Assembly (NCBI GenBank): GCA_022793995.1
Contig: JAAWDY010000043.1
Span: 29,375 to 93,374 of the forward strand
Reading direction: 5' to 3'
DNA: 64,000 bases
Source of the DNA: Coprococcus sp.
Lineage (GTDB): Bacteria; Bacillota; Clostridia; Lachnospirales; Lachnospiraceae
Of this stretch, positions 485 through 33,451 are shown piece after piece; position 1 is the stretch's first letter, and every line of letters starts with the position of its first letter. The translations under genes and the position numbers were made by a program. The notes beneath the pieces are model-generated. The model had not been told where the DNA came from and searched no databases. It worked only from the letters and a program-made list of their open reading frames with translations.

Positions 485-1249
485 TTGTTTACGAAGAGGA
501 TCATCCCCTGCCTGGATGTGAACAACGGGCGGGTTGTAAAGGGTGTAAATTTTGTGGATTTAAAGGATGCGGGCGATCCGGTGGAGATTGCCAGGGCTTA
601 TGATAAGGCGGGGGCGGACGAGCTTGTATTTCTGGATATCACGGCGTCTTCCGATGCCAGGAATACGGTGGTGGACATGGTGCGCCAGGTGGCGGAGCAG
701 GTATTTATCCCGTTCACCGTGGGCGGCGGAATCCGGACAGTGGAGGATTTTCGCGCGCTCCTTCGGGAAGGGGCGGATAAGATCTCGGTGAACTCCGCGG
801 CGATCATGCGCCCTCAGCTTATCAGCGAGGCGGCGGAAAAGTTCGGGAGCCAGTGCGTCGTGGTGGCTGTGGACGCGAAGCGCCGGGAAGATGGAAGCGG
901 CTGGAACATTTATAAAAACGGTGGGCGTATTGATATGGGAATCGACGCCATCGAGTGGGTGCGAACGGCGGAGAAGCTGGGAGCAGGAGAGATTCTTTTA
1001 ACCAGCATGGACTGTGACGGGACGAAAGCGGGATACGATCTGAAGTTGACAAAGGCTGTGGCCCAGAGCGTCTCAATCCCGGTGATCGCTTCCGGCGGAG
1101 CGGGCGCTTTGGAGCATTTTTATGAGGCCCTGGCAGAAGAGGGCGGAGCGGACGCCGCGCTTGCCGCCTCTTTATTCCATTATAAGGAATTGGAAATACG
1201 GGAAGTTAAGGAATATTTAAAAGAAAAAGGAATATCTGTCCGGCTGTGA
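485..1249 (+). CDS. hisF: Imidazole glycerol phosphate synthase subunit HisF
   Basis: [23 protein letters not shown]...; TTG start with upstream GGAGG; (beta/alpha)8 HisF motifs. Confidence 0.97.
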
Positions 1250-1274
1250 CAGATGTAAAAAGCGGGGAGAAAAG

Positions 1275-1955
1275 ATGGCTGCGATCAATAACGACTGGCT
1301 GGACGCCCTCAAGGGGGAATTTAAAAAGCCATATTATAAACAATTATTTGAAAGAGTGAACAGGGAATACCATACCCGGCGGATCTATCCGCCGGCGGAC
1401 GATATTTTTAACGCGTTTCATCTCACGCCGTTAAAGGATGTGAAGGTGGTGATCTTAGGGCAGGATCCGTACCATGGGGATGGGCAGGCGCACGGGCTTT
1501 GCTTTTCGGTGAAGCCGGATGTGGAGATTCCGCCGTCGCTTGTGAATATTTATCAAGAGCTGCACGACGATCTGGGATGCCGGATCCCCAGCCACGGCTA
1601 TCTGGTGAAATGGGCGAAGCAGGGAGTAATGCTTCTGAATACCGTACTCACGGTGCGGGCGCATCAGGCAAATTCCCACCGCGGGATGGGATGGGAGGAG
1701 TTTACGGACGCCGCGATCCAAGTACTGAACGGACAGGACAGGCCGATCGTCTTTATCCTGTGGGGAAGGCCGGCGCAGATGAAGAAGCGGATGCTGAACA
1801 ATCCACAGCATTTGATATTGGAAGCGCCCCATCCAAGCCCATTATCGGCCGGCAGGGGGTTTTTTGGGAGCCGTCCGTTTAGCCAGACGAACCGATTTTT
1901 AGAGGCGCATGGCATAACGCCGATCGACTGGCAGATCGATGAGGAGGAACGTTGA
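1275..1955 (+). CDS. ung: Uracil-DNA glycosylase (family 1)
   Basis: GQDPYHGDGQAHGLCFSV and HPSPLSAGRGFFGSRPFS motifs. Confidence 0.97.
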   Translation: MAAINNDWLDALKGEFKKPYYKQLFERVNREYHTRRIYPPADDIFNAFHLTPLKDVKVVILGQDPYHGDGQAHGLCFSVKPDVEIPPSLVNIYQELHDDLGCRIPSHGYLVKWAKQGVMLLNTVLTVRAHQANSHRGMGWEEFTDAAIQVLNGQDRPIVFILWGRPAQMKKRMLNNPQHLILEAPHPSPLSAGRGFFGSRPFSQTNRFLEAHGITPIDWQIDEEER

Positions 1956-3002: not shown

Positions 3003-4250
3003 ATGGCAGGATATGAAGTGAAAGAGGGAAAGGAACGGCTCATCCTTGTGGGGGTGAGCGCTGCGTCCGGCGGGTACGACGACACGGAGCAGTCGCTTTC
3101 GGAGCTTTCGGAGTTAATAAAGACCGCGGGAGCCGAGGAGGCGGGGCGGGTGATACAAAGGCGGGAGATGATTCATCCCGCCACTTATGTTGGAAAAGGG
3201 AAGATCGAGGAGATAAAGGAGCTTCTCTGGGAACTGGATGCAGCAGGGGTGGTCTGTGACGATGAGCTGTCCCCGGCGCAGATGGCGAACCTCTCTGAGG
3301 CGCTGGATACGAAGGTGATGGACAGGACACTGGTGATCCTCGATATTTTCGCAGGGCGCGCCGCCACCAGGGAAGGGAAGATTCAGGTGGAGCTGGCACA
3401 GCTCAAGTACCGACAGACCCAGCTTACCGGAGCAGGCAAGGCGTTGTCGCGTCTGGGCGGTGGAATTGGGACAAGAGGGCCTGGGGAAAAGAAGCTGGAG
3501 ATGGACAGGCGCCTTATCAAGGACCGGATCGCGCAGCTTGGCCGGGAACTGAAAGGGGTGAAGCGTCACAGGGAACTGACGCGGGAGCAACGAATCAGGA
3601 ACCATATGCCGGTCATCTCCATTGTGGGATATACGAACGCCGGGAAATCGACTCTGCTCAACAAACTGACGGGTGCGCAGGTCTTTGAGGAGGACGCCCT
3701 TTTCGCAACCCTGGATCCCACGACGCGGAATCTCCGGCTTCCAGGCGGGCAGGAGATCCTTTTGACGGATACGGTCGGTTTTATCCGCAAACTGCCGCAC
3801 CACCTGATCGACGCGTTCAAAAGTACGTTGGAGGAGGCGCGTTATGCAGATGTGATCCTCCATGTAGTGGATTTGTCGAACCCGCAGATGGACGAGCAGA
3901 TGCATGTAGTGTATGAGACGCTGAAACAGTTGAAAGTGATGGACAAGCCTGTGGTGACAGCGCTCAATAAGATGGACCGTCTGGAAGAGATGGTAAATGT
4001 CCGTGACCTGCGCGCAGACCGTGTTGTACGCATATCAGCAAAAACGGGGGAGGGGCTTACAGAGCTTCTAGGCGCGGTCACAGACGTCTTGCGCACTCAG
4101 GAAATCTATATTGAGCGGGTCTTTGGATACCGAGAAAATGAGGGCCTTCAGCTGATACGTAAATACGGTGAGATTTTCGAGGAGGAATATAGGGAGGACG
4201 GGGTCCATGTAAAAGCCTGTGTGCCGAAAGAGATTTACGGCAGGGTTTGA
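3003..4250 (+). CDS. hflX: GTPase HflX
   Basis: GYTNAGKSTLLN, DTVGFIRKLPHHLIDAFKSTLEEA, GGGIGTRGPGEKKLE. Confidence 0.96.
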   Translation: MAGYEVKEGKERLILVGVSAASGGYDDTEQSLSELSELIKTAGAEEAGRVIQRREMIHPATYVGKGKIEEIKELLWELDAAGVVCDDELSPAQMANLSEALDTKVMDRTLVILDIFAGRAATREGKIQVELAQLKYRQTQLTGAGKALSRLGGGIGTRGPGEKKLEMDRRLIKDRIAQLGRELKGVKRHRELTREQRIRNHMPVISIVGYTNAGKSTLLNKLTGAQVFEEDALFATLDPTTRNLRLPGGQEILLTDTVGFIRKLPHHLIDAFKSTLEEARYADVILHVVDLSNPQMDEQMHVVYETLKQLKVMDKPVVTALNKMDRLEEMVNVRDLRADRVVRISAKTGEGLTELLGAVTDVLRTQEIYIERVFGYRENEGLQLIRKYGEIFEEEYREDGVHVKACVPKEIYGRV

Positions 4251-4261
4251 AAGGAGATTTT

Positions 4262-7200
4262 ATGTCACTTCAGTTTATTTTGGGAAATTCCGGTTCCGGA
4301 AAGTCCCATTATTTATATGAACATGTCATTTCAGAATCAATCCAGCATCCTGATAAGAATTATATCGTTATTGTGCCGGAGCAGTTTACCATGCAGACAC
4401 AGAGGGAATTCGTCATGCGGCATCCCCGGCACGGTATCATGAATATTGATGTACTCAGTTTTGCGCGCCTCGCCTTTCGGGTGCTGGAGGAAACCGGAGC
4501 GGCAGACCGGACAGTGCTGGACGATGAAGGGAAGAACCTGATCTTGCGTAAGATCGCGGGCAAGGTGGAGAATACGCTCACAGTGCTTCGGGGGAACCTT
4601 CGGAAAACGGGATATATCAGCGAAGTGAAATCCGTCATATCCGAGCTGACCCAGTACAGTATCCCGCCGGAAGGAATGGAATCTATGATGGAGGCGGCCG
4701 AGGAAAATACCTACCTATATTATAAGTTGCAGGATATTCAGAAGGTCTATACGGAATTTGAAGCGTACCTGGAAGACCGTTATATCACGAAAGAAGAAAT
4801 CCTGGACATTCTGTGCAGGGAAATCCCTAAGTCCAGGCTTATGCAGGGGAGCGTGGTGGCGCTGGATGGCTTTACCGGCTTCACTCCCTTGCAGAACCGT
4901 GTGCTGGGGGAAATGATGAAGGTCTGCCAGAAGGTTTTTGTGACGGTCACGATCGATGGGAGGGAGGACCCTTTTGTACTGGAGGATAAGTTCCGCCTTT
5001 TCGCCTTGAGTAAGCAGATGGTGACGTCCCTGGTGCAGATTGCCGGGAGTGAAAAGGTCTGGATCGAAGACGCTGTAGATCTGTGTGGAACCCCTGTCCG
5101 CCGGTTTCGGGAGAATCCGGCGCTTGCCTATTTGGAGGCAGGGCTGTTCCGGTACGAGAATAAAAGCTATGGGGATCAACAACAGAATGTACGTCTCTAT
5201 GCTGCGCAGAATCCCGCGGCAGAGACAGAATGTGCGGCGCAGCGGATCCGTTTTCTGGTGAGAAAGAAGGGATACCGGTATCGGGATATTGCGGTGATCG
5301 CAGGGGACATGAACATTTACGGGGATGAGATCGAGCGTGTGTTTGCCCGGTACGACATCCCGGTATTTATGGATTATAAACGCAGCGTGCTCCTCAACTC
5401 CTTCGTGGAATATCTGCGGAGCCTTCTGAATATGGCGGAGCAGAATTTTACGGTGGACGGTGTGCTCCGTTTCTTAAGGACGGGCCTTGCCGGATTTACA
5501 GGGGATGAGGCGGATGTGCTGGAGAACTACCTGGGAGCGGTGGGCATCCGTGGGTATAAGAAATGGCAGGAAAAGTGGATCCGCAGAACAAAGAGGACTT
5601 CGGAAGAAGAGCTGGAACGCTTGAACCATCTGCGTGTACGGATGGTCGAGAAGGTGGATTCGCTTATGTATGTTCTGAAGCAGCGCCGGAAAACGGTGTG
5701 CGATGTGACAACGGCGCTTTATGAGTTTCTGGTAAAGGGGGAGCTTCAGAGAAAGGTGAAAGATCAGGAGAGGAAGTTTGCCGAGGAGGGGGAGCTGGCT
5801 CTTGCAAAGGAATATGCCCAGATTTACCGGGTGGTGATGGAACTTTTTGACAAGTTTGTAACCCTTCTGGGCGAGGAGACGATCTCTCTTAGCGAGTACG
5901 GTGAGCTTCTTGACGCCGGGATGGAGGAAGCGCGCATCGGCGTAATTCCGCCCAGTATGGACGAGGTTATGGCGGGCGATATTGAGAGAAGCCGTCTGCG
6001 GGATGTGCGCGCTCTCATCCTGCTGGGAGCGAACGACGCCCTGATTCCGGGGGCAGTGCAGGCAGGCGGTCTTTTGTCCGAACGGGACAGGGAACGCTTC
6101 CAGGAGGAGGGTATCGTGCTCGCGCCCGGAGCGAAAGAAAAAACATATATACAGAAATTTTATCTATATTTACATATGACGAAACCGACGGAGGAGCTGG
6201 ACGTGTGTTTCAGCAAGGTATCATCGGAGGGAAAGAGCCTTCGCCCCTCTTATCTGGTGGGCGATCTTCGGAGGATGTTTCCGAAAACCGTGGTCTTTGA
6301 CCTGGAAAAGTACGGTCCGGAGTATCGGGAGCTTCTGCCGGAGACAGGGGTTGACTATTTGATACAAGGGTTTCGCTCGGAAGAGCAGATGGAAGGGGCA
6401 GTATGGCAGGAATTATATCGCTGGTATCTGGCGCAAGGGGCCTGGCGGCCTGCGGCGCTGCGCCTGGCGGCGGCTTCCCTGCACCGGAAGCCTGATGAGA
6501 GGCTGTCGCAGATGACCGCGCAGGAATTATATGGTCCGTGGGAGCCAAGCGTGTCAAGGCTGGAGCGATTCGTTTCCTGCGCTTGTGCCCATTTCCTGAC
6601 CTATGGACTTCGTATAAAAGAGCGAGAAGAGTACGAGTTTGCCGCGCTTGATTTTGGAAATGTATTCCATACGGCGCTGGAGCGGTACGCCCGGTTTGTC
6701 GAGAAGGCGAAAGTGGACTGGACCAGTCTTACCGAAGAACAGCAGAAAGAATTGGCGGTAAGAAGCGTGGAGGAGAGTATTGCGGATTACAGCAACACTG
6801 TGCTCTATAGTTCGGCGAGGAACGCCTATATGATTCCCAGAATGAAGCGGATGATGAACCGCACGGTCTGGGCGATGACAAGGCAGCTCAAGAGGGGGGA
6901 TTTTCGTCCCGTGGGATATGAGGTGGATTTCGGGAGCGGCAAGATCGATCGGATCGATACCTGCGAGACAGAGGATACCGTATATGTGAAAATCATTGAC
7001 TACAAGACAGGAATGAAGGCGTTCGATATGGCGGCATTTTACCACGGCCTGCAGATGCAGCTCGTCGTCTACATGGAAGAGGCCCTGAAGCTGGAAGAAA
7101 AACGGCATCCGGGCAAGACAGCTGTTCCGGCGGGAATCTTCTATTATCGGATGAAGGATCCGGTGGTGGATAAAGAGCCGGATCAGGAGAAGCTGGAGGA

Positions 7201-7642
7201 GGCGATTCTTAAGGAACTGCGCCTGGACGGGCTGGTAAACGAGGAGGACGCGGTAATCCGGCGTCTGGACAGGGAATTCCAGGATACGTCCAGTGTCATT
7301 CCGGTGAAGAAATCCAAGGGCGGTTATGCCAAGTCATCGAAGACCTTGAGCCAGGAAGAATTTACGGAAGCGCTCGTTTTTGCCGGGAAGAAGCGGGAAG
7401 AATTAAAAGAGAGGATGACCCAGGGGGACGCGGACGCGGCGCCCTATGAGCTGGGAAAGGAGACGGGATGCGATTTCTGTAGGTATCGGAATATCTGCGG
7501 GTTTGACGAACGAATCGAGGGATATGAGTACCGGAAGCTTTCACGCCTGACAAAGGACGAGGCGCTGGAGGCGATGAGAGGAATAAAGGAGGATATACGG
7601 CATGGCGGTGAAATGGACAGAGGAGCAGAAGCAGGTCATTGA
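4262..7642 (+). CDS. addB: Helicase-exonuclease AddAB, subunit AddB
   Basis: MSLQFILGNSGSGKSHYLY, C-terminal Fe-S/nuclease motif ETGCDFCRYRNICGFD; overlaps addA. Confidence 0.94.
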   Translation: MSLQFILGNSGSGKSHYLYEHVISESIQHPDKNYIVIVPEQFTMQTQREFVMRHPRHGIMNIDVLSFARLAFRVLEETGAADRTVLDDEGKNLILRKIAGKVENTLTVLRGNLRKTGYISEVKSVISELTQYSIPPEGMESMMEAAEENTYLYYKLQDIQKVYTEFEAYLEDRYITKEEILDILCREIPKSRLMQGSVVALDGFTGFTPLQNRVLGEMMKVCQKVFVTVTIDGREDPFVLEDKFRLFALSKQMVTSLVQIAGSEKVWIEDAVDLCGTPVRRFRENPALAYLEAGLFRYENKSYGDQQQNVRLYAAQNPAAETECAAQRIRFLVRKKGYRYRDIAVIAGDMNIYGDEIERVFARYDIPVFMDYKRSVLLNSFVEYLRSLLNMAEQNFTVDGVLRFLRTGLAGFTGDEADVLENYLGAVGIRGYKKWQEKWIRRTKRTSEEELERLNHLRVRMVEKVDSLMYVLKQRRKTVCDVTTALYEFLVKGELQRKVKDQERKFAEEGELALAKEYAQIYRVVMELFDKFVTLLGEETISLSEYGELLDAGMEEARIGVIPPSMDEVMAGDIERSRLRDVRALILLGANDALIPGAVQAGGLLSERDRERFQEEGIVLAPGAKEKTYIQKFYLYLHMTKPTEELDVCFSKVSSEGKSLRPSYLVGDLRRMFPKTVVFDLEKYGPEYRELLPETGVDYLIQGFRSEEQMEGAVWQELYRWYLAQGAWRPAALRLAAASLHRKPDERLSQMTAQELYGPWEPSVSRLERFVSCACAHFLTYGLRIKEREEYEFAALDFGNVFHTALERYARFVEKAKVDWTSLTEEQQKELAVRSVEESIADYSNTVLYSSARNAYMIPRMKRMMNRTVWAMTRQLKRGDFRPVGYEVDFGSGKIDRIDTCETEDTVYVKIIDYKTGMKAFDMAAFYHGLQMQLVVYMEEALKLEEKRHPGKTAVPAGIFYYRMKDPVVDKEPDQEKLEEAILKELRLDGLVNEEDAVIRRLDREFQDTSSVIPVKKSKGGYAKSSKTLSQEEFTEALVFAGKKREELKERMTQGDADAAPYELGKETGCDFCRYRNICGFDERIEGYEYRKLSRLTKDEALEAMRGIKEDIRHGGEMDRGAEAGH

Positions 7643-10600
7643 TCTAAGGGACAGAAATATTCTGGTTTCCGCGGCGGCAGGCTCCGGTAAAACGGCGGTA
7701 CTGGTGGAACGGATCATCGCGCGTCTCACGAAAGATACGTATCCGGTGGACGTGGATCGTATGCTGATCGTAACTTACACGGAGGCGGCGGCAGCCGAGA
7801 TGAAGGAGAGGATCGTGGACGCTCTCGAAAAGGCGCTTGCAAAGAATCCTTCGGATATCCATCTGAAACGCCAGTTGGCGCTGATCCATACAGCGAAGAT
7901 CACGACGATACATAGTTTCTGCCTTTCCGTTATTCGGGAGTATTTTCATACCATTGACCTGGATCCAGGTTTTCGTATCGCGGAGGAAGGGGAAATCCGG
8001 CTTTTGAAGCAGGACGTCATGCGGGAAATGCTGGAGGCCCGCTATGAGCAAGGAAGCGAGGAGTTCCTGCGCTTTGTGGAGACGTTTGCCACAGGACGGG
8101 GGGACGATCAGCTCTCGGAGCTGATCCAGGAACTTTTTGAGTACGCGGGGAGCTATCCGGACGCGGACGCGTGGCTGGACGGATGTGCGGACGCATATGA
8201 TACAGGTCTTAGTGAGGGTTCCCCTTTCGTGCAGGCGCTTTTGTCCTATATGAAAGAGTGTCTCCAGGATTTCCAAAAGCTTTTCGCGGAGGCGGAGGAG
8301 ATCTGCCGGGAAGCGGACGGACCCTATATGTATGAGAAGACGATTGAGGCGGACTGGCAGCGGTTGGAGCCTGTTTTTAACGCTCGGGATTTAGAAGGGT
8401 ATTTCCTTGCTTTTCAGTCATTAGGAGCGTGGGCAAAGCTTGCGGCGAACCGGGATAAAGAGGTGTCCCGGGAGAAGGCGGAGCGTGTGAAAGCTCTTCG
8501 CGGAGCGTGGAAGAAACTGGCGGACGATATACAGTGCGGCTTCTTCTTCCAGCCGCGCGGGGAGATGGAGGAAGATATTGCACTGAGCCGCCCGGTCATC
8601 CATACGCTGGTGGAGCTGGTAAAAGAATTCGACCGGGCCTTTGCCGCGAAAAAAGCGGAGAAAAATGTGATCGATTTTCGGGATATGGAGCATTTTGCGC
8701 TGAAAATACTGACTCGCAGGGAGGAGGGGAAGCTTGTGCCCTCTGAGGCGGCGAAGGAATATCAGGAACAGTTTGTGGAAGTGATGATCGACGAATATCA
8801 GGACAGCAACCTGATCCAGGAGGCGATCCTTGGCAGCGTGTCACGGAGTAGCAAAGGAGAGAATAACCTGTTCATGGTGGGGGACGTGAAGCAGAGTATT
8901 TACCGTTTTCGGCTGTCCCGGCCGGAGCTTTTCATGGAAAAATTCGATTCATACAGTACAGAAGAAGGAGACTGCCGCCGCATTGACCTGCATAAGAATT
9001 TTCGGAGCCGGCGGGAAGTTTTGGATTCGGTAAACGTCATTTTCCGGCAGATCATGACGAGAAAGCTAGGGAAAATAGAATATGACGATAACGCCGCTTT
9101 ATATGTGGGTGCGACCTATAAGGAGCAAAAAGGCAATGAGACGGAGATTCTGGTGATCGACACCGAGACTTTGGGGGAAGAGGAGGAGAGTCCCGAAGAT
9201 GGGGGATACGAGGGAGGCACAGGCGGCAAGGGAAGATCAGCCGGCGCGGACGCGGCGCGGGAGACGGAAGCTCGTGCGGCGGCGGAGCGGATCCACGCGC
9301 TTCTGGAAAGTCACCGGGTATGGGACAAGGAGCTGAATGAGTTTCGGCCTGTCCAATGCCGCGACATCGCGCTCCTTACCCGGAGTCTTGCGGGCTGGAC
9401 GGACATTTTTATCCGGGTACTAGGGGAGGAAGGAATCCCCGCTTTTGCCCCATCGAAAGAAGGGTATTTCGGGACGCCGGAGATTGGGTGGATGCTGGAT
9501 TACCTGCGGGTGTTGGATAATTTTCGGCAGGACATCCCCCTTGCGGCTGTGCTGAAATCCCCTTTTGGAGAGTGTACGAATGAAGAACTTGCCTGTATAC
9601 GCAAAAGATACCCCAAAGTAGCGTTTCACGAAGCAGCGCTCATGACAGCGGGAATCCTGGATGAACCGGAACAGACGGACGCAGACGCGGATACGGATGC
9701 GAAGAGGAACGCCGGAGAGGGAAAGCGGGAAGAGACGGAAGAAATACCGCAGGCCATGCGGGAGAAGCTTGCACGTATCTTTGGGGAACTTGCTCGTTTC
9801 CGGGAACGGGTGCCGTATACAGCCATCCATGACCTGCTCTGGATGATTATGAAGGAGACCGGTTACCGGGATTATGTCTACGCAATGCCGGGAGGAGAAC
9901 AAAGGCTGGCAAACCTGGAAATGCTCCTTGCCCGTGCAAAAAGCTTTGAGGCGGCAAGCTATAAGGGATTGTTTCATTTTGTCCGGTATATCGGGCAGCT
10001 CCAGAAATATAACGTGGATTTCGGCGAGGCGGGGATTTATGACGAGGGGACGGACGCGGTACGGGTGATGAGTATCCATAAGAGTAAAGGGCTGGAATTC
10101 CCGGTCGTGATCGTGGCAGGAATGGGGAAGCAGTTCAACACCCAGGATTTGAAAGGAAGTATCGTGGTACACCCGGAGCTTGGCGTAGGGATGGATGCGG
10201 TGGATCTTGTAAGAAGGACAAAGTGCCCCACGATTTTTAAGAAGATTATCCAGACAGAGACAAAATTGGAAAACCTGGGCGAAGAGCTGCGGGTACTCTA
10301 TGTGGCGATGACGCGTGCGAAAGAGAAGCTGATCCTTCTAGGGACAGTATCGAAAGCAGCGAAGAAGCTGGCAGATTACGAGGCCAGGGAAGAAGACGCA
10401 CGAACGCCTCTTTCTTTTACAACACTTGCAGGCGCGAAGTGTTACTATGACTGGGTCCTCCCCGCGGCGGCAAAGCTTTCCGGGACGCTCCCTCTTACAG
10501 TCACTTTGCTGGACCCCGGCGGGATCCGCGCAGGAGGGAGAACGCGGCGGAAGATGGATCGGGTGGAAAAGGAAATGTTCCTGAATGCCGCGGCAGATCG

Positions 10601-11354
10601 GACGCATCCGTTAGCTAAGACGGACGAAAGGTTTGCCAAGCGCCTTATGGAACAGTTTACGTACCGGTATCCTTTCGAGAAGGAAGAACAGTTTAAGCTG
10701 AAGTATACTGTGTCCGAGCTGAAGAAGCGGTCCATGCCCCTGCTCCTTAGGGAACCTGGGGAAGACGGGGAGATTCTGGTGGAGGAGGAAGAGGTCATCC
10801 CGCTGGTTCCGAAATTTATGCAGGAGGAACATGAGCTGACGGGCGCATCTCGGGGAAGCGCATATCATAAGCTTTTAGAGCTTCTGGATTTTACAAAGGA
10901 ATATACCAAGGATACACTGGCGGCAGCAGTCGCTCATTTTCAGGAAGAGAAGCTTTTGAGCGAAGAGATGGCGGTATGCATCCGTGCGGAGGATATCCAA
11001 CATTTTCTGAGTACGGATATCGGAAAGAGGATGCATCAGGCGGCGCTTTTGGGACGTCTTTACCGGGAGCAGCCGTTTGTGTTCGGCATTGACGCAGGAG
11101 AAATGTATCCCGGCGCCGATAACGGGGAACTGGTATTGATCCAAGGGATCATCGACGTATTTTTTGAGGAAGAGGATCGCCTGATTGTGCTGGATTATAA
11201 AACGGATAAGGCACGGGAGGCAGGAGAGCTTGTCGAGAAATACCAGGAACAGCTGCATTTATATGGAAGAGCGCTGGAACAGATGACAGGAAAGAAGGCT
11301 GCGGAAAAAGTGATCTATTCGTTTACACTGCGGCAGGAAATCGTATTGGAGTGA
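7602..11354 (+). CDS. addA: Helicase-exonuclease AddAB, subunit AddA
   Basis: [57 protein letters not shown], nuclease motif VLDYKTDKA. Confidence 0.96.
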   Translation: [1250 protein letters not shown]

Positions 11355-27120: not shown

Positions 27121-27489
27121 GTGGGGGGGATTATCAAAGAAAAACATATTGCTCAAATCCAATATAATATGAATATTGGTGTTACGGAGCCAAAATATGC
27201 TCTTTTGGATGATGGAACCCAGGTTATAGTAAAATTAGCGCAGGGTCCAGAAGGGAATCTGGTACTATTTAACGAGTATGTGTGTTATAGACTTGCAATA
27301 TTAATTGGTCTTCCGATGCCCTACTGCGGAATATGCGTTATGGATGAAAATACAGAAGTATTTGATTCCAGTATCGCTTCAAGCAAAAACTATGGACATG
27401 CATTTTATTCGACATATATGCCTAAAACAACAAAATTATTACCCTCGATCGATTCTATAATGTCTGCGATCATGCAATATATAAAGTGA
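27121..27489 (+). pseudogene. HipA-like kinase, N-lobe only (C-terminal catalytic half missing)
   Basis: ALLDDGTQVIVKLAQGPEGNLVLFNEYVCYRLAILIGLPMPYCGI resembles the N-terminal half of HipA-like kinases; stop after IMQYIK, no catalytic-loop or DFG-like motif. Confidence 0.6.
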
Positions 27490-27503
27490 AAAGGCGGTAT
27501 ATC

Positions 27504-28250
27504 ATGAGTCATATTAAATATTCGGCTTTGAATTATTATCATTCGCCTATATCGGACGAGTGTTTATGTCTTGGAGTCCTGTTCCACAATATCACTACAG
27601 GTCAGCGTGATTTCAGGTATATTTCTAATTTCAAGAGATTCCAGATATTTGATGACGAGGCGGATGTAGATTTTGTAAAAGCATATCTTGTAGGGATTAA
27701 AGAAGATGTTGAGAATTCCATTTTGAACTATAAGGAAGAATTTGATTTACAATCATATATTAACGTGTTTGCCAATGAATTTAGGTTCTCCACAATTAGA
27801 AAGCCTAATGTGGAGGAAAATGAAAATTGCGTGGAGGAACTTACCAAAGTTTACTTAAAATATGATCTGGCAAAATCACAGAGACTTAACAGTAATGAAG
27901 AAAAGAAACTAATTAAACGTGTGCTCGAAATCAACAATCTAGAATATTCAAATGGAAGGATTTCAGGGGAATTTAACGATGAAATACCATTTGATTACCA
28001 GTTAGATAATTTGTGTATTAAGCATTTTTCGTTTAAAGGCAAAAATTTAAGAAGAGTTATAAGTAATGCGAGACAATGGTCGTTTGCAGCAGGCGAAATA
28101 GATGGAATAAAAAAGGTTCTGTTTATTTATGATAGTGATTTTGAAGACAGAGAGAATTTGAAAATCATTATTGATATTTTGTCTAAACATGCAGAAGTCT
28201 GCCAGATGGATGACGGTATGGACTATATATTGAAATCGTGTACGATATAA
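27504..28250 (+). CDS. DUF3037-like protein
   Basis: IKYSALNYYHSPISDECLCLGVLFHNITTGQRDFRYISNFKRF; adjacent to a HipA-like gene as is common for this pair. Confidence 0.7.
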   Translation: MSHIKYSALNYYHSPISDECLCLGVLFHNITTGQRDFRYISNFKRFQIFDDEADVDFVKAYLVGIKEDVENSILNYKEEFDLQSYINVFANEFRFSTIRKPNVEENENCVEELTKVYLKYDLAKSQRLNSNEEKKLIKRVLEINNLEYSNGRISGEFNDEIPFDYQLDNLCIKHFSFKGKNLRRVISNARQWSFAAGEIDGIKKVLFIYDSDFEDRENLKIIIDILSKHAEVCQMDDGMDYILKSCTI

Positions 28251-28325: not shown

Positions 28326-31300
28326 ATGTATATAGCGGATCTTCACATTCATTCGCGTTATTCTCGTGCGACAAGCAAGGACTGCACACCGGAGTATTTG
28401 GACTTGTGGGCGAGGCGCAAGGGAATTCATATTGTGGGCAGCGGAGATTTTACGCATCCGGCGTGGCGCAAGGAATTGGAAGAGAAGCTGGAGATTGCGG
28501 CGAACGGGCTGTATACGTTGAAAAAAGAGTACCGAATCGGAGACGATATGGCTGCAGACACAATGCAGCCGTATTTTGTCATTACCGGAGAAATTAGTTC
28601 GATCTATAAGAAAAACGGGCGTGTCCGTAAAGTACACAGCCTGATTATACTGCCGCATCTTGAAGCCGCGGAACTCATTTCACGTAAGCTGGAAGCGATT
28701 GGAAATATTCACTCGGATGGACGGCCAATCCTGGGGCTGGACTGTCACGACTTGCTGGAGATTATTCTGGAGTCCTGCCCGGACGCCATATATGTCCCCG
28801 CGCACATCTGGACGCCACATTTTTCACTGTTTGGCGCATTTTCCGGGTTTGATTCAGTGGAAGAATGTTACGGAGATCTGACGCCCTTCATCCATGCCAT
28901 GGAGACAGGACTTTCATCAGACCCGCCTATGAATTGGAGAGTATCGGCGCTTGACAATTACCAGTTGATTTCTAATTCAGACGCGCATTCCCCAGCAAAA
29001 CTAGGAAGAGAGGCAAATCTTTTGGATATTGACCTCTCCTGCCAGGGGTATCGGGGAATTTGGGATGCGATTCAGACCGGGAAAGGACTTGCGGGTACGA
29101 TCGAATTTTTCCCGGAGGAAGGAAAATATCATTTGGACGGGCACCGAAAATGCAATCTGTGCCTGGAGCCGCATGAAACGGAGAAATACGGCGGAATCTG
29201 CCCGGTTTGCGGGAAGAAGATCACGATCGGCGTATCGCACCGGATCGAGCAGCTTGCGGACAGGGAAGAAGGCTATATCAGAGGAAATGCGTCGGCATTT
29301 GAAAGTCTGATGCCGCTTCCAGAGGTAATCAGCGCATCCATAGGACGGGCCCCGTCGAGCGCGGGGGTACAAAAGGAGTACCGAAATATGCTACAAAAGT
29401 TGGGAGCAGAGTTCCAGATCTTGCGGGAACTGCCCCTGGAAGAAATACGAAGCGTCTCCGGGAGGATGATTTCGGAAGGGATTGGAAGGTTAAGAAAAGG
29501 CGAAGTGACAAGACTTCCGGGATTTGACGGGGAATATGGGATTATCCGCCTTTTTACGCCGGATGAGATCATGCAGACGGACGGACAGATGAGCTTCTTT
29601 TCCTCCATTCCGGGAATGGGAGACGAAGCGGCGGGGGATTCGCCCGGAAAGGTGACGGGACGATCTGCTTCAGGCGGACAGACGGCGCTGGAAGGACAAG
29701 GCGTTTTAAAGGAACGGACAAGCTCTGTAGAAGAAACACTTTTGGAGGGACAGAAACTACCTGAAAGACAAGTGTTGGCTCCGAATGAGAAGCAGCAGGA
29801 AGCGACACGGGCGGCGGAAGCTGTCGTTGCGGTTACCGCAGGTCCGGGGATGGGTAAGACTCATACGCTGGTATCCCATATCCTGTATCTGATGGAGGAA
29901 AGAAGGGTGCGCCCGGCAAATATCACAGCGGTCACATTCACGAACCAGGCGGCAAAAGAAATGCGGGAACGGATTCAGAAACGGGTAGGCAAAGGGAAAA
30001 GTATCCGGCAGATGCAGATTGGGACGTTCCATACACTTGCCCTGAATCAGCTTAAGGAAGCAGGAATGGAATTTACCCTAGCCGGGGAAGTGGAAATGCA
30101 GGAATTGGCGGATTCTGTGATAAAGGAGCGGGGGCTTAATATATCGGTCAGGGAATTTTTGCTTGCGGTGTCACGCATAAAGACAACAGGATATGGCACA
30201 GATGAGATATCGGAAAGGATAAGGAGAGACGCAGGCGAAGAAATAAGAGAAGAGATAAGGAAAGAAATAAAGGAAGAGATAAGGGAAGAAGTAAGAGAAG
30301 GGATAAGAGAAGAAATACAGGAGGCGGCCGCGGATTATCAACAATATCTGGCGGACAGGAAAATGCTGGATTTTGACGACCTGCTTCTGGAAGCGCTGCG
30401 ATTTGCAAAGGAAGAGGAAATGGGAGGATGCTTTACTTATCTTATGGTGGATGAATTCCAGGATATCAGCCCGTTACAGTACCGTTTGATTAAGGCGTGG
30501 AACCAGGGAGGCAGGCAGCTTTACGTAATTGGCGACGCCGATCAGGCGATCTATGGCTTCCGGGGCGCGGATGCCGCGTGTTTCAAAAAACTGGAGGGGG
30601 ATTTCCCAGACCTTCATAAGATCATGCTCACACAAAATTATCGTTCCACGCCGCAGATTCTTTCCCTGGCGGAAGAAGTGATCTCCAAGAATCCAGGCGG
30701 GAAAAGGATCCTTTGCCCCAACAAGCCGGACGGCTGCGCGGTACGTGTAGTGAATGCGGCAAGCGAAATGGCGGAAGCAATTTTCATCGCAAAGGAGATC
30801 AACCGTCTTGCGGGCGGAATCGGCATGCTGGAAGCCCAGGAGATTTTCCTCAAAGAAGAAGGCAGGGCGAGGGCATTTGACGAAATTGCGGTACTATACC
30901 GTACCCACCGCCAGGCGGATATTCTGGAGACATGCCTGAAAAAGGAAGGAATCCCTTACGTGGTGGCAGGAAGGGATGATTTCCTTATGGATGCGAAGGT
31001 GCGGGGAACGTGCGCTTTCTTCCGAAGCCTGATAGAAGCGGAAGGGGGAAATTCTGGAAGAAGTGAGCGAAGCGAAGGCGGCGAGGGGAGAAAGTCTGCC
31101 CTAAAACTTCTGTGGGGTCTGGAAGATGATGAACTCAGCGAAAGCATTTACAAAAATATGGCGGAGAAATACTGTCCATACCTTAAGAAAAAACGCCCGG
31201 AGAAGATTCTGGACGAATGGATAGAAGACCTGGGGCTTGAAAAGAATAAAGCGATGCAAAAACTCTGCCGGACGGCGGTATTTTATTCCCATATGAAGGA

Positions 31301-31700
31301 ATTTCTAGAGGCGCTCACATTGGGTACGGAAGGCGATCTGCGGCGTTCCGGCGGGAGAAAATGCCCGAAAGGCGCGGTGAATTTAATGACCCTGCATGGC
31401 GCGAAAGGCCTGGAGTTCCCTGTGACGATCATTTTCGGCGCAAATCAGGGGATGATTCCTTTTGAAAGCGAAAGACATACGGCGGATATAGAGGAGGAGA
31501 GACGGCTTTTCTATGTCGGGATCACCAGGGGAAAGGAAGAACTGATTCTGACAACCTCCGGGGAGGAGTCGGAATTCCTCAAAGACATTTCCAAAGAAAA
31601 GATATGCTGGGAGAAGGCGGATAAGAGAAGAGGGGCGGACGGGGGAAAACAGATGAGCCTGTTTGACCTGGTTCCGACGATTATTTCAAGCAAACAATAA
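28326..31700 (+). CDS. Endonuclease Q-like PHP nuclease fused to UvrD/PcrA-type SF1 helicase
   Basis: N-term DLHIHSRYSRATSKD, GSGDFTHP, CNLCLEPHETEKYGGICPVCGKKITIGVSHRIEQLADR; C-term AGPGMGKTHTL, VDEFQDISPLQYRLI, GDADQAIYGFRGAD, TLHGAKGLEFPVTIIFG, RRLFYVGITRGKEEL. Confidence 0.9.
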   Translation: MYIADLHIHSRYSRATSKDCTPEYLDLWARRKGIHIVGSGDFTHPAWRKELEEKLEIAANGLYTLKKEYRIGDDMAADTMQPYFVITGEISSIYKKNGRVRKVHSLIILPHLEAAELISRKLEAIGNIHSDGRPILGLDCHDLLEIILESCPDAIYVPAHIWTPHFSLFGAFSGFDSVEECYGDLTPFIHAMETGLSSDPPMNWRVSALDNYQLISNSDAHSPAKLGREANLLDIDLSCQGYRGIWDAIQTGKGLAGTIEFFPEEGKYHLDGHRKCNLCLEPHETEKYGGICPVCGKKITIGVSHRIEQLADREEGYIRGNASAFESLMPLPEVISASIGRAPSSAGVQKEYRNMLQKLGAEFQILRELPLEEIRSVSGRMISEGIGRLRKGEVTRLPGFDGEYGIIRLFTPDEIMQTDGQMSFFSSIPGMGDEAAGDSPGKVTGRSASGGQTALEGQGVLKERTSSVEETLLEGQKLPERQVLAPNEKQQEATRAAEAVVAVTAGPGMGKTHTLVSHILYLMEERRVRPANITAVTFTNQAAKEMRERIQKRVGKGKSIRQMQIGTFHTLALNQLKEAGMEFTLAGEVEMQELADSVIKERGLNISVREFLLAVSRIKTTGYGTDEISERIRRDAGEEIREEIRKEIKEEIREEVREGIREEIQEAAADYQQYLADRKMLDFDDLLLEALRFAKEEEMGGCFTYLMVDEFQDISPLQYRLIKAWNQGGRQLYVIGDADQAIYGFRGADAACFKKLEGDFPDLHKIMLTQNYRSTPQILSLAEEVISKNPGGKRILCPNKPDGCAVRVVNAASEMAEAIFIAKEINRLAGGIGMLEAQEIFLKEEGRARAFDEIAVLYRTHRQADILETCLKKEGIPYVVAGRDDFLMDAKVRGTCAFFRSLIEAEGGNSGRSERSEGGEGRKSALKLLWGLEDDELSESIYKNMAEKYCPYLKKKRPEKILDEWIEDLGLEKNKAMQKLCRTAVFYSHMKEFLEALTLGTEGDLRRSGGRKCPKGAVNLMTLHGAKGLEFPVTIIFGANQGMIPFESERHTADIEEERRLFYVGITRGKEELILTTSGEESEFLKDISKEKICWEKADKRRGADGGKQMSLFDLVPTIISSKQ

Positions 31701-32032: not shown

Positions 32033-32737
32033 TTGTCGGAAATCCGCATTCCAGCCTCAGTAACTTCTATAGACGGCGGCGCTTTTGCAAAGTGCGCGTC
32101 CCTTACATCTGTTTATTTTGTAGGAGATGCCCCTAAATTTTATACTTATACAGTAAAAGGAGAGGGTATATGGAAAGCGTTTAATAAGGCTAGGGCAAAT
32201 GTATATTACCCATATGGAAATCCTACCTGGACAGAGGAGAATATGCTGGATTATAGCGGGGAACTCACCTGGCTGGCATGGAAACCGGATCTTCGTATTA
32301 TTTTGGAACTGACTGACTCTGTTTATGTTATTGGGAGCGGCGGTGATGTGACGATTACCTGTTCGGGCCGTTATCCAGAATTTGTCAGTGCAGCTATGGA
32401 CGGCGTTACTATGGATTCTTCGCAATATCAGGTAAAAGAAGGTTCTACGGTCCTGACAATGGTTTCCAAATATCTGGATACCCTATCCGTGGGCAGCCAT
32501 ACAGTGACTCTCAACTATACCTATGGTTCTATTGACACAAATTTAAAAATACTTGACAGGAAAATAACTGTGGAGGAGGAAGTAACTTCTGGTACAGCGG
32601 TAAATGCTCATACAAGTTCTGTCAACACGGGTGATGAGTCCTCCGTTGCTTTATGGCTTCTTGGCGCAGGGGGATCCTCTTGTGTGTGTTTCTACATATG
32701 TATGTGGCATAAAAAGAGAAAAGGGGTTAAGAATTAA
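32033..32737 (+). pseudogene. 3' remnant of a BspA-like leucine-rich-repeat surface protein with a TGD-type sorting tail
   Basis: LSEIRIPASVTSIDGGAFAKCASLTSVYFVGDAPKF; tail VNTGDESSVALWLLGAGGSSCVCFYICMWHKKRKG; no signal peptide upstream. Confidence 0.65.
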
Positions 32738-32908: not shown

Positions 32909-33451
32909 TTACAATAAATCAGAAATTTTGATAGTCAGATCATTAAAAATGTAAACTGGTATTTCTTCTTCAAAAGAAAATAAATTTGAATCTTCTTCAC
33001 CTTCAAAGAAATAAGTCTGAACAGCTTTTTTCATTGGGTTTACTATCCAGTACTCCCGAACACCGGCAGTGCGATATTTGAACAGTTTAATGGAATAATC
33101 TACCCGGGCACTGCTTGGGGAAACGATTTCGATAATCCAATCAGGGGCGCCTTTACATCCATGGTCTGACAGCTTGTCTTTATCGCATATGACAGAGAGA
33201 TCGGGTTCTACCCAAATCTTATCGTCTGCGTTTAGGTTTACAGCAAATGGAGCGTAGTAAATTTTGCAGTCCCCTTCGTTTGATTTGATATAATTATTAA
33301 TTATGGTATAGAGTTCCCCGGATATTTCCTGATGAATCCGGCTGGGTGGAGTCATAGCGTATAATTTCCCGTCTATCAGCTCTGCCCGCTGTCCTTCCGG
33401 CAGATGCCAGTAGTCTTCTGATGTATAAATGCGTTCCTGCGGCATTGGCAT
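32909..33451 (-). CDS. Uma2-family (DUF820-type) putative endonuclease
   Basis: AELIDGKLYAMTPPSRIHQEISGEL, WVEPDLSVICDKDKLSDHGCKGAPDWIIEIVSPSSARVDYSIKLFKYRTAGVREYWIVNP; good RBS. Confidence 0.88.
   Translation of the reverse strand: MPMPQERIYTSEDYWHLPEGQRAELIDGKLYAMTPPSRIHQEISGELYTIINNYIKSNEGDCKIYYAPFAVNLNADDKIWVEPDLSVICDKDKLSDHGCKGAPDWIIEIVSPSSARVDYSIKLFKYRTAGVREYWIVNPMKKAVQTYFFEGEEDSNLFSFEEEIPVYIFNDLTIKISDLL

Follow-up and report, generated by a model that had tools for sequence, protein, structure and literature searches.

An uninterrupted gene of the gut bacterium Coprococcus sp. encodes a protein in which an Endonuclease Q (EndoQ) is joined to a UvrD-type SF1 helicase and which carries two predicted beta-clamp-binding motifs. 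We propose that this protein is probably a replication-clamp-tethered excision-repair enzyme for deaminated bases, operating by a nick-and-peel mechanism. The step that follows the EndoQ nick is a long-standing question, and in one published model a helicase is required for clearing the strand (PMC4357722). In many Clostridia and several other phyla, the clade described here joins a helicase to EndoQ and keeps two predicted clamp hooks; the post-incision step thereby becomes directly testable with one protein plus DnaN. These data also suggest that EndoQ is coupled to the replication clamp in both archaea (PCNA) and bacteria (beta clamp). Together, sequence comparisons and structure modelling support the view that the fusion is a divergent and widespread EndoQ-helicase with clamp motifs, within a known enzyme family. 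We found no published description of an EndoQ-helicase fusion, in a literature search that lay mostly outside the subscription journals and is no proof of absence.

The DNA analysed (hereafter, the window) is a stretch of 64,000 nt of the contig JAAWDY010000043.1 (assembly GCA_022793995.1; positions 29,375 to 93,374, forward strand), and its relevant features are collected in Table 1. An earlier note on this DNA had read the gene as a single 1124-aa polypeptide comprising an EndoQ-like PHP nuclease and a UvrD-type SF1 helicase. The sequence matches and the predicted fold bear this out, and all the motifs named in that note were found in the protein, whereas the two motifs QMSFF and QMSLF had been overlooked. 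The fold was predicted with AlphaFold2 from 52 fused homologues (mean pLDDT 82.5). A full-length copy, 87% identical, occurs in a sister species (G425). A chance or mis-assembled fusion was ruled out because the same two-domain arrangement, with its conserved linker motif, recurs in about a hundred other genomes.

Table 1. The EndoQ-UvrD fusion, its parts and neighbouring genes (positions of the window).
Feature	Position	Strand	Basis
EndoQ-UvrD fusion gene	28326..31700	+	uninterrupted ORF, 1124 aa, ATG start at 28326
Endonuclease Q domain (PHP fold, zinc-binding domain, C-terminal domain), residues 1-417	28326..29576	+	sequence and predicted fold
Catalytic and base-pocket residues E89, H104, H160, G195, S197, D219, H221	28590..28988	+	alignment with PfuEndoQ
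Predicted zinc-binding site, HC3 type: H273, C276, C292, C295	29142..29210	+	aligned with Pfu C249, C252, C268, C271
Disordered linker between the EndoQ and helicase halves, residues 420-482	29583..29771	+	pLDDT below 50
Internal predicted beta-clamp-binding motif QMSFF, residues 421-425, right after the EndoQ domain	29586..29600	+	conservation
UvrD/PcrA-type SF1 helicase, residues 486-1080, with shortened 2B region (about 905-1008)	29781..31565	+	sequence and predicted fold
Walker A AGPGMGKT, residues 505-512	29838..29861	+	K511, T512 invariant in 52 proteins
12/24-nt tandem repeat inside the helicase half	30237..30317
Walker B DEFQD, residues 709-713	30450..30464	+	D709, E710, Q712, D713 invariant in 52 proteins
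C-terminal predicted beta-clamp-binding motif QMSLF, residues 1109-1113	31650..31664	+	conservation
Ung	1221..1955		GQDPYH motif
AddB	4193..7642		size, order, P-loop sequence
AddA	7587..11354		size, order, P-loop sequence
HipA_2 kinase fragment (122 aa) and DUF3037 gene, between pyrD and the fusion	27121..28250	+
Short BspA-type LRR and CBM_X2 surface protein, possibly a fragment	32033..32737	+	both weak Pfam matches
Uma2-family putative restriction endonuclease gene	32909..33451	-	Pfam PF05685

Residues 1-417 are an Endonuclease Q by sequence and predicted fold. Searches with phmmer matched them to PfuEndoQ (5zb8, 7k30-33) at 1e-46 over residues 4-417, and the TIGR00375 model matched at 1.4e-51 over residues 4-407, with a score of 176 bits that lies below the curated cut-off of 326.6 bits. 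Using Foldseek, the predicted fold was aligned with PfuEndoQ (5zb8/7k30) at TM 0.85-0.89, the N-terminal half of the full-length model reaching a TM of 0.89 (normalised by target) with an rmsd of 2.6 Å. When this half was modelled alone, EndoQ was the only significant match, the next PHP proteins following at E 5e-3 or worse. The structural comparison advised in the earlier note thus came out in favour of EndoQ, with no other PHP protein close. The clade scores below the TIGR00375 cut-off, and its members would likely be named only as UvrD-type helicases.

To map individual residues, PfuEndoQ was placed in an alignment of 159 EndoQ sequences, in which Pfu E76, H84, H139, G169, S171, D193 and H195 correspond, in that order, to the seven catalytic and base-pocket residues of Table 1. 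All seven are invariant in 96 fused relatives, and the first six (E89 to D219) also in 33 other clade members; a PHP half lacking the metal or base-binding residues of EndoQ, which had been named as the finding that would speak against the EndoQ reading, is therefore not what we observed. Roles have been reported for several of these residues. E76, H84 and H139 of PfuEndoQ are zinc ligands whose mutation abolishes activity, and H139, G169 and S171 belong to the pocket and are said to keep T and A out (both reported in the review PMC8307549). D193 is replaced by Asn in the 7k31 construct, and the matching essential residue of the M. acetivorans enzyme was mutated (D192A) to provide an inactive control (PMC6202378). 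The zinc site departs from the four-cysteine module announced earlier, since the aligned ligands are His273-Cys276-Cys292-Cys295. Of the two cysteines of the 'CNLC' motif, C276 is retained as a putative ligand, and C279, which varies among relatives, is not. The first ligand position is His in 96/96 fused proteins, and Cys in 30/30 canonical Clostridia EndoQs and in PfuEndoQ (Cys249); all four positions of the fused proteins hold ligand-type residues and form a putative zinc site. Near the active site, G40 and P223 make the fusion closer to PfuEndoQ than the canonical Clostridia enzymes are.

The clamp motifs are the most informative feature for the mechanism. We searched the terminal 20 residues and the linker of 95 fused proteins whose 3' end was complete for the pattern Q..[LIMF]F. 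The C-terminal motif occurred in 89 of them (mean 2.0 and maximum 12 in 1000 shuffles) and the linker motif in 73 (mean 1.4, maximum 6), with an almost constant spacing between the EndoQ domain and the linker motif. In a set thinned to 60% identity, the counts were 45/48 and 37/48, respectively. Among 973 neighbouring proteins, the background was 9 matches. The motif positions show high pairwise identity (1.0 for the Q and the last F, which the pattern itself fixes), compared with mostly 0.1-0.2 immediately outside. An alignment of 52 fused proteins made without such selection likewise shows no variation at Q1109 and F1113, and at least 90% conservation of G420 and Q421. Both segments are predicted to be disordered, the C-terminal tail having, like the linker, a low pLDDT in the AlphaFold2 model. 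The clamp motif was absent from the 30/30 canonical Clostridia EndoQs checked and from the stand-alone members nested within the fused clade, and it was found at the end of nine Nitrospirota EndoQs. In archaea, EndoQ binds PCNA, which stimulates nicking, through a PIP box at the equivalent C-terminal position; that study also drew attention to beta-clamp-type motifs ending some bacterial EndoQs (PMC4858679). The linker motif is therefore this known feature of EndoQ, retained within the fusion, and the motif at the helicase end is an addition, for which we have so far found no description. From these motifs we infer that both hook the replication clamp (DnaN), bearing in mind that they are short and that a match alone is no proof of binding.

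The C-terminal half is related to PcrA, UvrD and Rep. It matched the domains UvrD-helicase (1.3e-58) and UvrD_C (3.2e-42), as well as the PcrA structure 1pjr (1.2e-66, phmmer), and residues 487-903 plus about 1008-1078 align with PcrA/UvrD. The corresponding half of the model retrieved UvrD/PcrA/Rep structures with TM up to 0.74. In addition to the Walker residues, R746, T1067 and R1068 are invariant in the 52 fused proteins, and the earlier claim of intact catalytic motifs holds in both halves. The helicase half departs from PcrA: it scored 314 bits against the TIGR01073 (PcrA equivalog) cut-off of 911 bits; its 2B region is shortened to about 105 residues, versus 145 in PcrA (403-548), as judged from the phmmer alignment; and the PcrA-type C-terminal extension is absent, QMSLF standing in its place. 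The same genome encodes a separate PcrA-like helicase, and its helicase paralogues are about 34-36% identical to the helicase half. Among the fused loci, identity to the window protein is about 52-81% in the EndoQ half and about 30-57% in the helicase half, which indicates a stronger constraint on the nuclease than on the motor. The tandem repeat in the helicase half encodes an EIREEIRKEI-type charged helix and has a reduced length in the sister protein (L195; 87% identity), as expected of a length-variable insert.

The earlier note had suspected that the fusion lay unremarked in databases and had proposed counting its fused and split forms. It is indeed widespread: a scan of genome contigs gave at least 589 relatives of the EndoQ half, the best 80 of which include Nitrospirota, Chloroflexota, a deltaproteobacterium and a Treponema. 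Within the phylum, 30 of 300 sampled species, from at least 17 other families, have the fused gene (the helicase half was checked in each). Among 119 other genera sampled in the family, 14 have an intact fused gene, one has an interrupted copy and two have a stand-alone EndoQ of the same clade; in the genus, the distribution is patchy (3/8 species). An interrupted EndoQ-UvrD gene (L067:7984-11232) is broken in the helicase half (672 aa + 381 aa), and is a decaying or frame-shifted copy. A FastTree EndoQ tree, which is indicative only, separates 129 sequences of the fusion's clade from canonical EndoQ with 100% support. Fused forms dominate this clade, and stand-alone forms are nested among them with at least 14 state changes, for which repeated helicase loss appears to be the simplest reading, the tree alone being unable to separate gain from loss. 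A Nitrospirota branch consists of stand-alone EndoQ and provides the one clear split form (L184), in which endoQ is followed 10 bp downstream by a separate uvrD-type gene, in an apparent operon; both proteins end in clamp-type motifs, QGTLF for endoQ and QMGLF (PQMGLF) for uvrD. Some genomes (e.g. G148 and G181) possess the fusion together with a higher-scoring canonical-type EndoQ. One genome (G001) has a fused (L090:3570-7202, +) and a stand-alone EndoQ (L090:14250-15512, -) of the same clade 7 kb apart; they adjoin on the tree, consistent with a possible duplication followed by helicase loss.

The gene neighbourhood varies between lineages. In the window, the fusion lies downstream of pyrC-pyrF-pyrK-pyrD (named from the ORF sequences), from which it is separated by about 1.16 kb holding the HipA_2 fragment and the DUF3037 gene. 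This insert is missing from the sister species (G425, L195), where the fusion directly follows pyrD, and we saw no sign that the fusion is mobile cargo. In Moorella stamsii and its relatives, the fusion is preceded by uvrB and followed, on loci that extend far enough, by uvrA and uvrC (Pfam-confirmed in L085), and a small PIN-like gene, named from its sequence, lies in opposite orientation between uvrB and the fusion (L085, L098, L101, L102, L108). A further lineage has mini-RNase III, thyX (thymidylate synthase) and an RlmB-like gene next to the fusion. Outside these lineage-specific uvrB/uvrA and thyX neighbourhoods, no conserved operon partner was found across the clade. Anti-phage defence, with the fusion as a Gabija-like nuclease and UvrD pair directed against uracil- or hypoxanthine-containing phage DNA, is very improbable. 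Although the best PADLOC matches are GajB helicases (257 bits) and an antiviral role has been suggested for Bacillus EndoQ (PMC8307549), the PcrA model scores higher (314 bits), and there is no GajA-type (OLD nuclease) partner, the adjacent ORFs being the HipA_2, DUF3037, BspA/CBM_X2 and Uma2 genes of Table 1. Furthermore, no recurring defence gene was seen among the 44 immediate neighbours scanned, phage records gave no match to the EndoQ half, plasmid records held no place covering 80% of the query, and the gene stands within a uvr cluster in one lineage.

The Ung and AddAB genes reported earlier in the window were confirmed. A uracil-DNA glycosylase (UDG) was present in 36/36 family genomes tested, this one included, in carriers and non-carriers of the fusion alike, so that uracil repair alone fails to explain why the enzyme is kept, and a role as a substitute for UDG was ruled out. 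EndoV is absent from this genome and from 35/36 family genomes checked, and an EndoQ-EndoV double incision was rejected on this ground. The redundancy of dU repair could also mean that the EndoQ half has drifted to another substrate (a different modified base, some DNA structure, or exclusively AP sites), the protein still being a clamp-linked nick-and-unwind enzyme but not one for deamination repair. The distance of the fused clade from canonical EndoQ, the score of 176 bits against a cut-off of 326.6, and the altered zinc ligand set go in the same direction; we nonetheless regard such a drift as quite unlikely, because the pocket residues matching Pfu H139, G169 and S171 are invariant, the zinc position and the fold are kept, and G40 and P223 are more PfuEndoQ-like than in the canonical Clostridia enzymes.

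The EndoQ identity of the N-terminal half, its intact residues, the intact helicase motifs, the two conserved clamp motifs, the archaeal PIP-box parallel, the apparent L184 operon and the uvrB-uvrA context thus all point to a nick-and-peel enzyme, whose nicking, unwinding and clamp binding we infer from the sequence. First, the two clamp-binding motifs would hold the protein on DnaN. Second, the EndoQ half would flip out dU, dI, dX or an abasic site and nick 5' of it, leaving a 3'-OH; such nicking 5' of deaminated bases is expected because the active site and the base pocket are intact and invariant. Third, the UvrD-type half would load at the nick on the intact strand and, because SF1A helicases translocate 3'->5', would move 3'->5' along it; the downstream strand with the lesion would be peeled off 5' end first, and peeling and repair synthesis would run in one direction. 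Fourth, a polymerase on the same clamp would fill in, and a flap nuclease and ligase would presumably finish. Of the two models in the EndoQ discovery paper, one includes 'removal by helicase activity' (PMC4357722), a step that the fusion would supply in cis, and the absence of EndoV argues against EndoV as the partner for 3' incision. Other observations weigh against the nick-and-peel proposal: the helicase half is less conserved and was apparently lost many times, so that nicking may not need it, and the gene lacks conserved neighbours outside the uvr and thyX lineages and is patchy even within the genus.

Alternatively, the protein could be a true EndoQ nuclease to which the helicase, instead of peeling the nicked strand, feeds DNA, by tracking single-stranded or newly replicated DNA near the fork and exposing lesions or remodelling forks, while the clamp motifs hold it there. 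The clamp motifs do imply a replisome link, U and Hx are also cut by archaeal EndoQ when the DNA is single-stranded (PMC11354406), and the helicase motifs are intact yet the 2B region is shortened. However, a single-stranded template nicked at the fork would break the chromosome, and the uvrB-uvrA context favours excision repair over fork scanning, so that we hold this possibility to be unlikely. Going beyond nick-and-peel by a single protein, it is conceivable, if somewhat doubtful, that the clade represents a widespread bacterial repair pathway, in which one polypeptide sits on both pockets of the dimeric beta clamp and couples recognition, incision and strand removal behind the fork, serving as the main route for hypoxanthine (and misincorporated dU/dI) in bacteria devoid of EndoV.

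Compared with known systems, the fusion has in common with archaeal EndoQ (PfuEndoQ PF1551, TkoEndoQ TK0887) the fold, the metal and base-pocket residues and a clamp-type motif where the EndoQ domain ends, whereas the archaeal enzymes are stand-alone, have no helicase, possess a Cys4 zinc site and bind PCNA instead of the bacterial beta clamp. The bacterial EndoQs of the canonical type (TIGR00375; as in B. subtilis and B. pumilus) have the same domain arrangement and catalytic residues, but they form a separate clade, lack a helicase and have a Cys4 zinc site; near the end they carry GGGG in place of the GYDGE of the fusion clade, and the 30 Clostridia sequences mentioned above show no clamp motif. 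With the PcrA/UvrD/Rep SF1A helicases, the fusion shares all helicase motifs and the fold, and differs in a 2B region about 40 residues shorter and in the clamp motif that replaces the PcrA C-terminal extension. EndoMS/NucS is a lesion or mismatch endonuclease reportedly enhanced by the sliding clamp (PMC8228993), with an unrelated nuclease fold and no helicase. Finally, AddAB/RecBCD and Dna2-type nuclease-helicases likewise combine a nuclease with an SF1 motor, but their nucleases are of the PD-(D/E)XK type and act on ends or flaps, whereas that of the fusion is a predicted lesion-specific N-terminal PHP nuclease.
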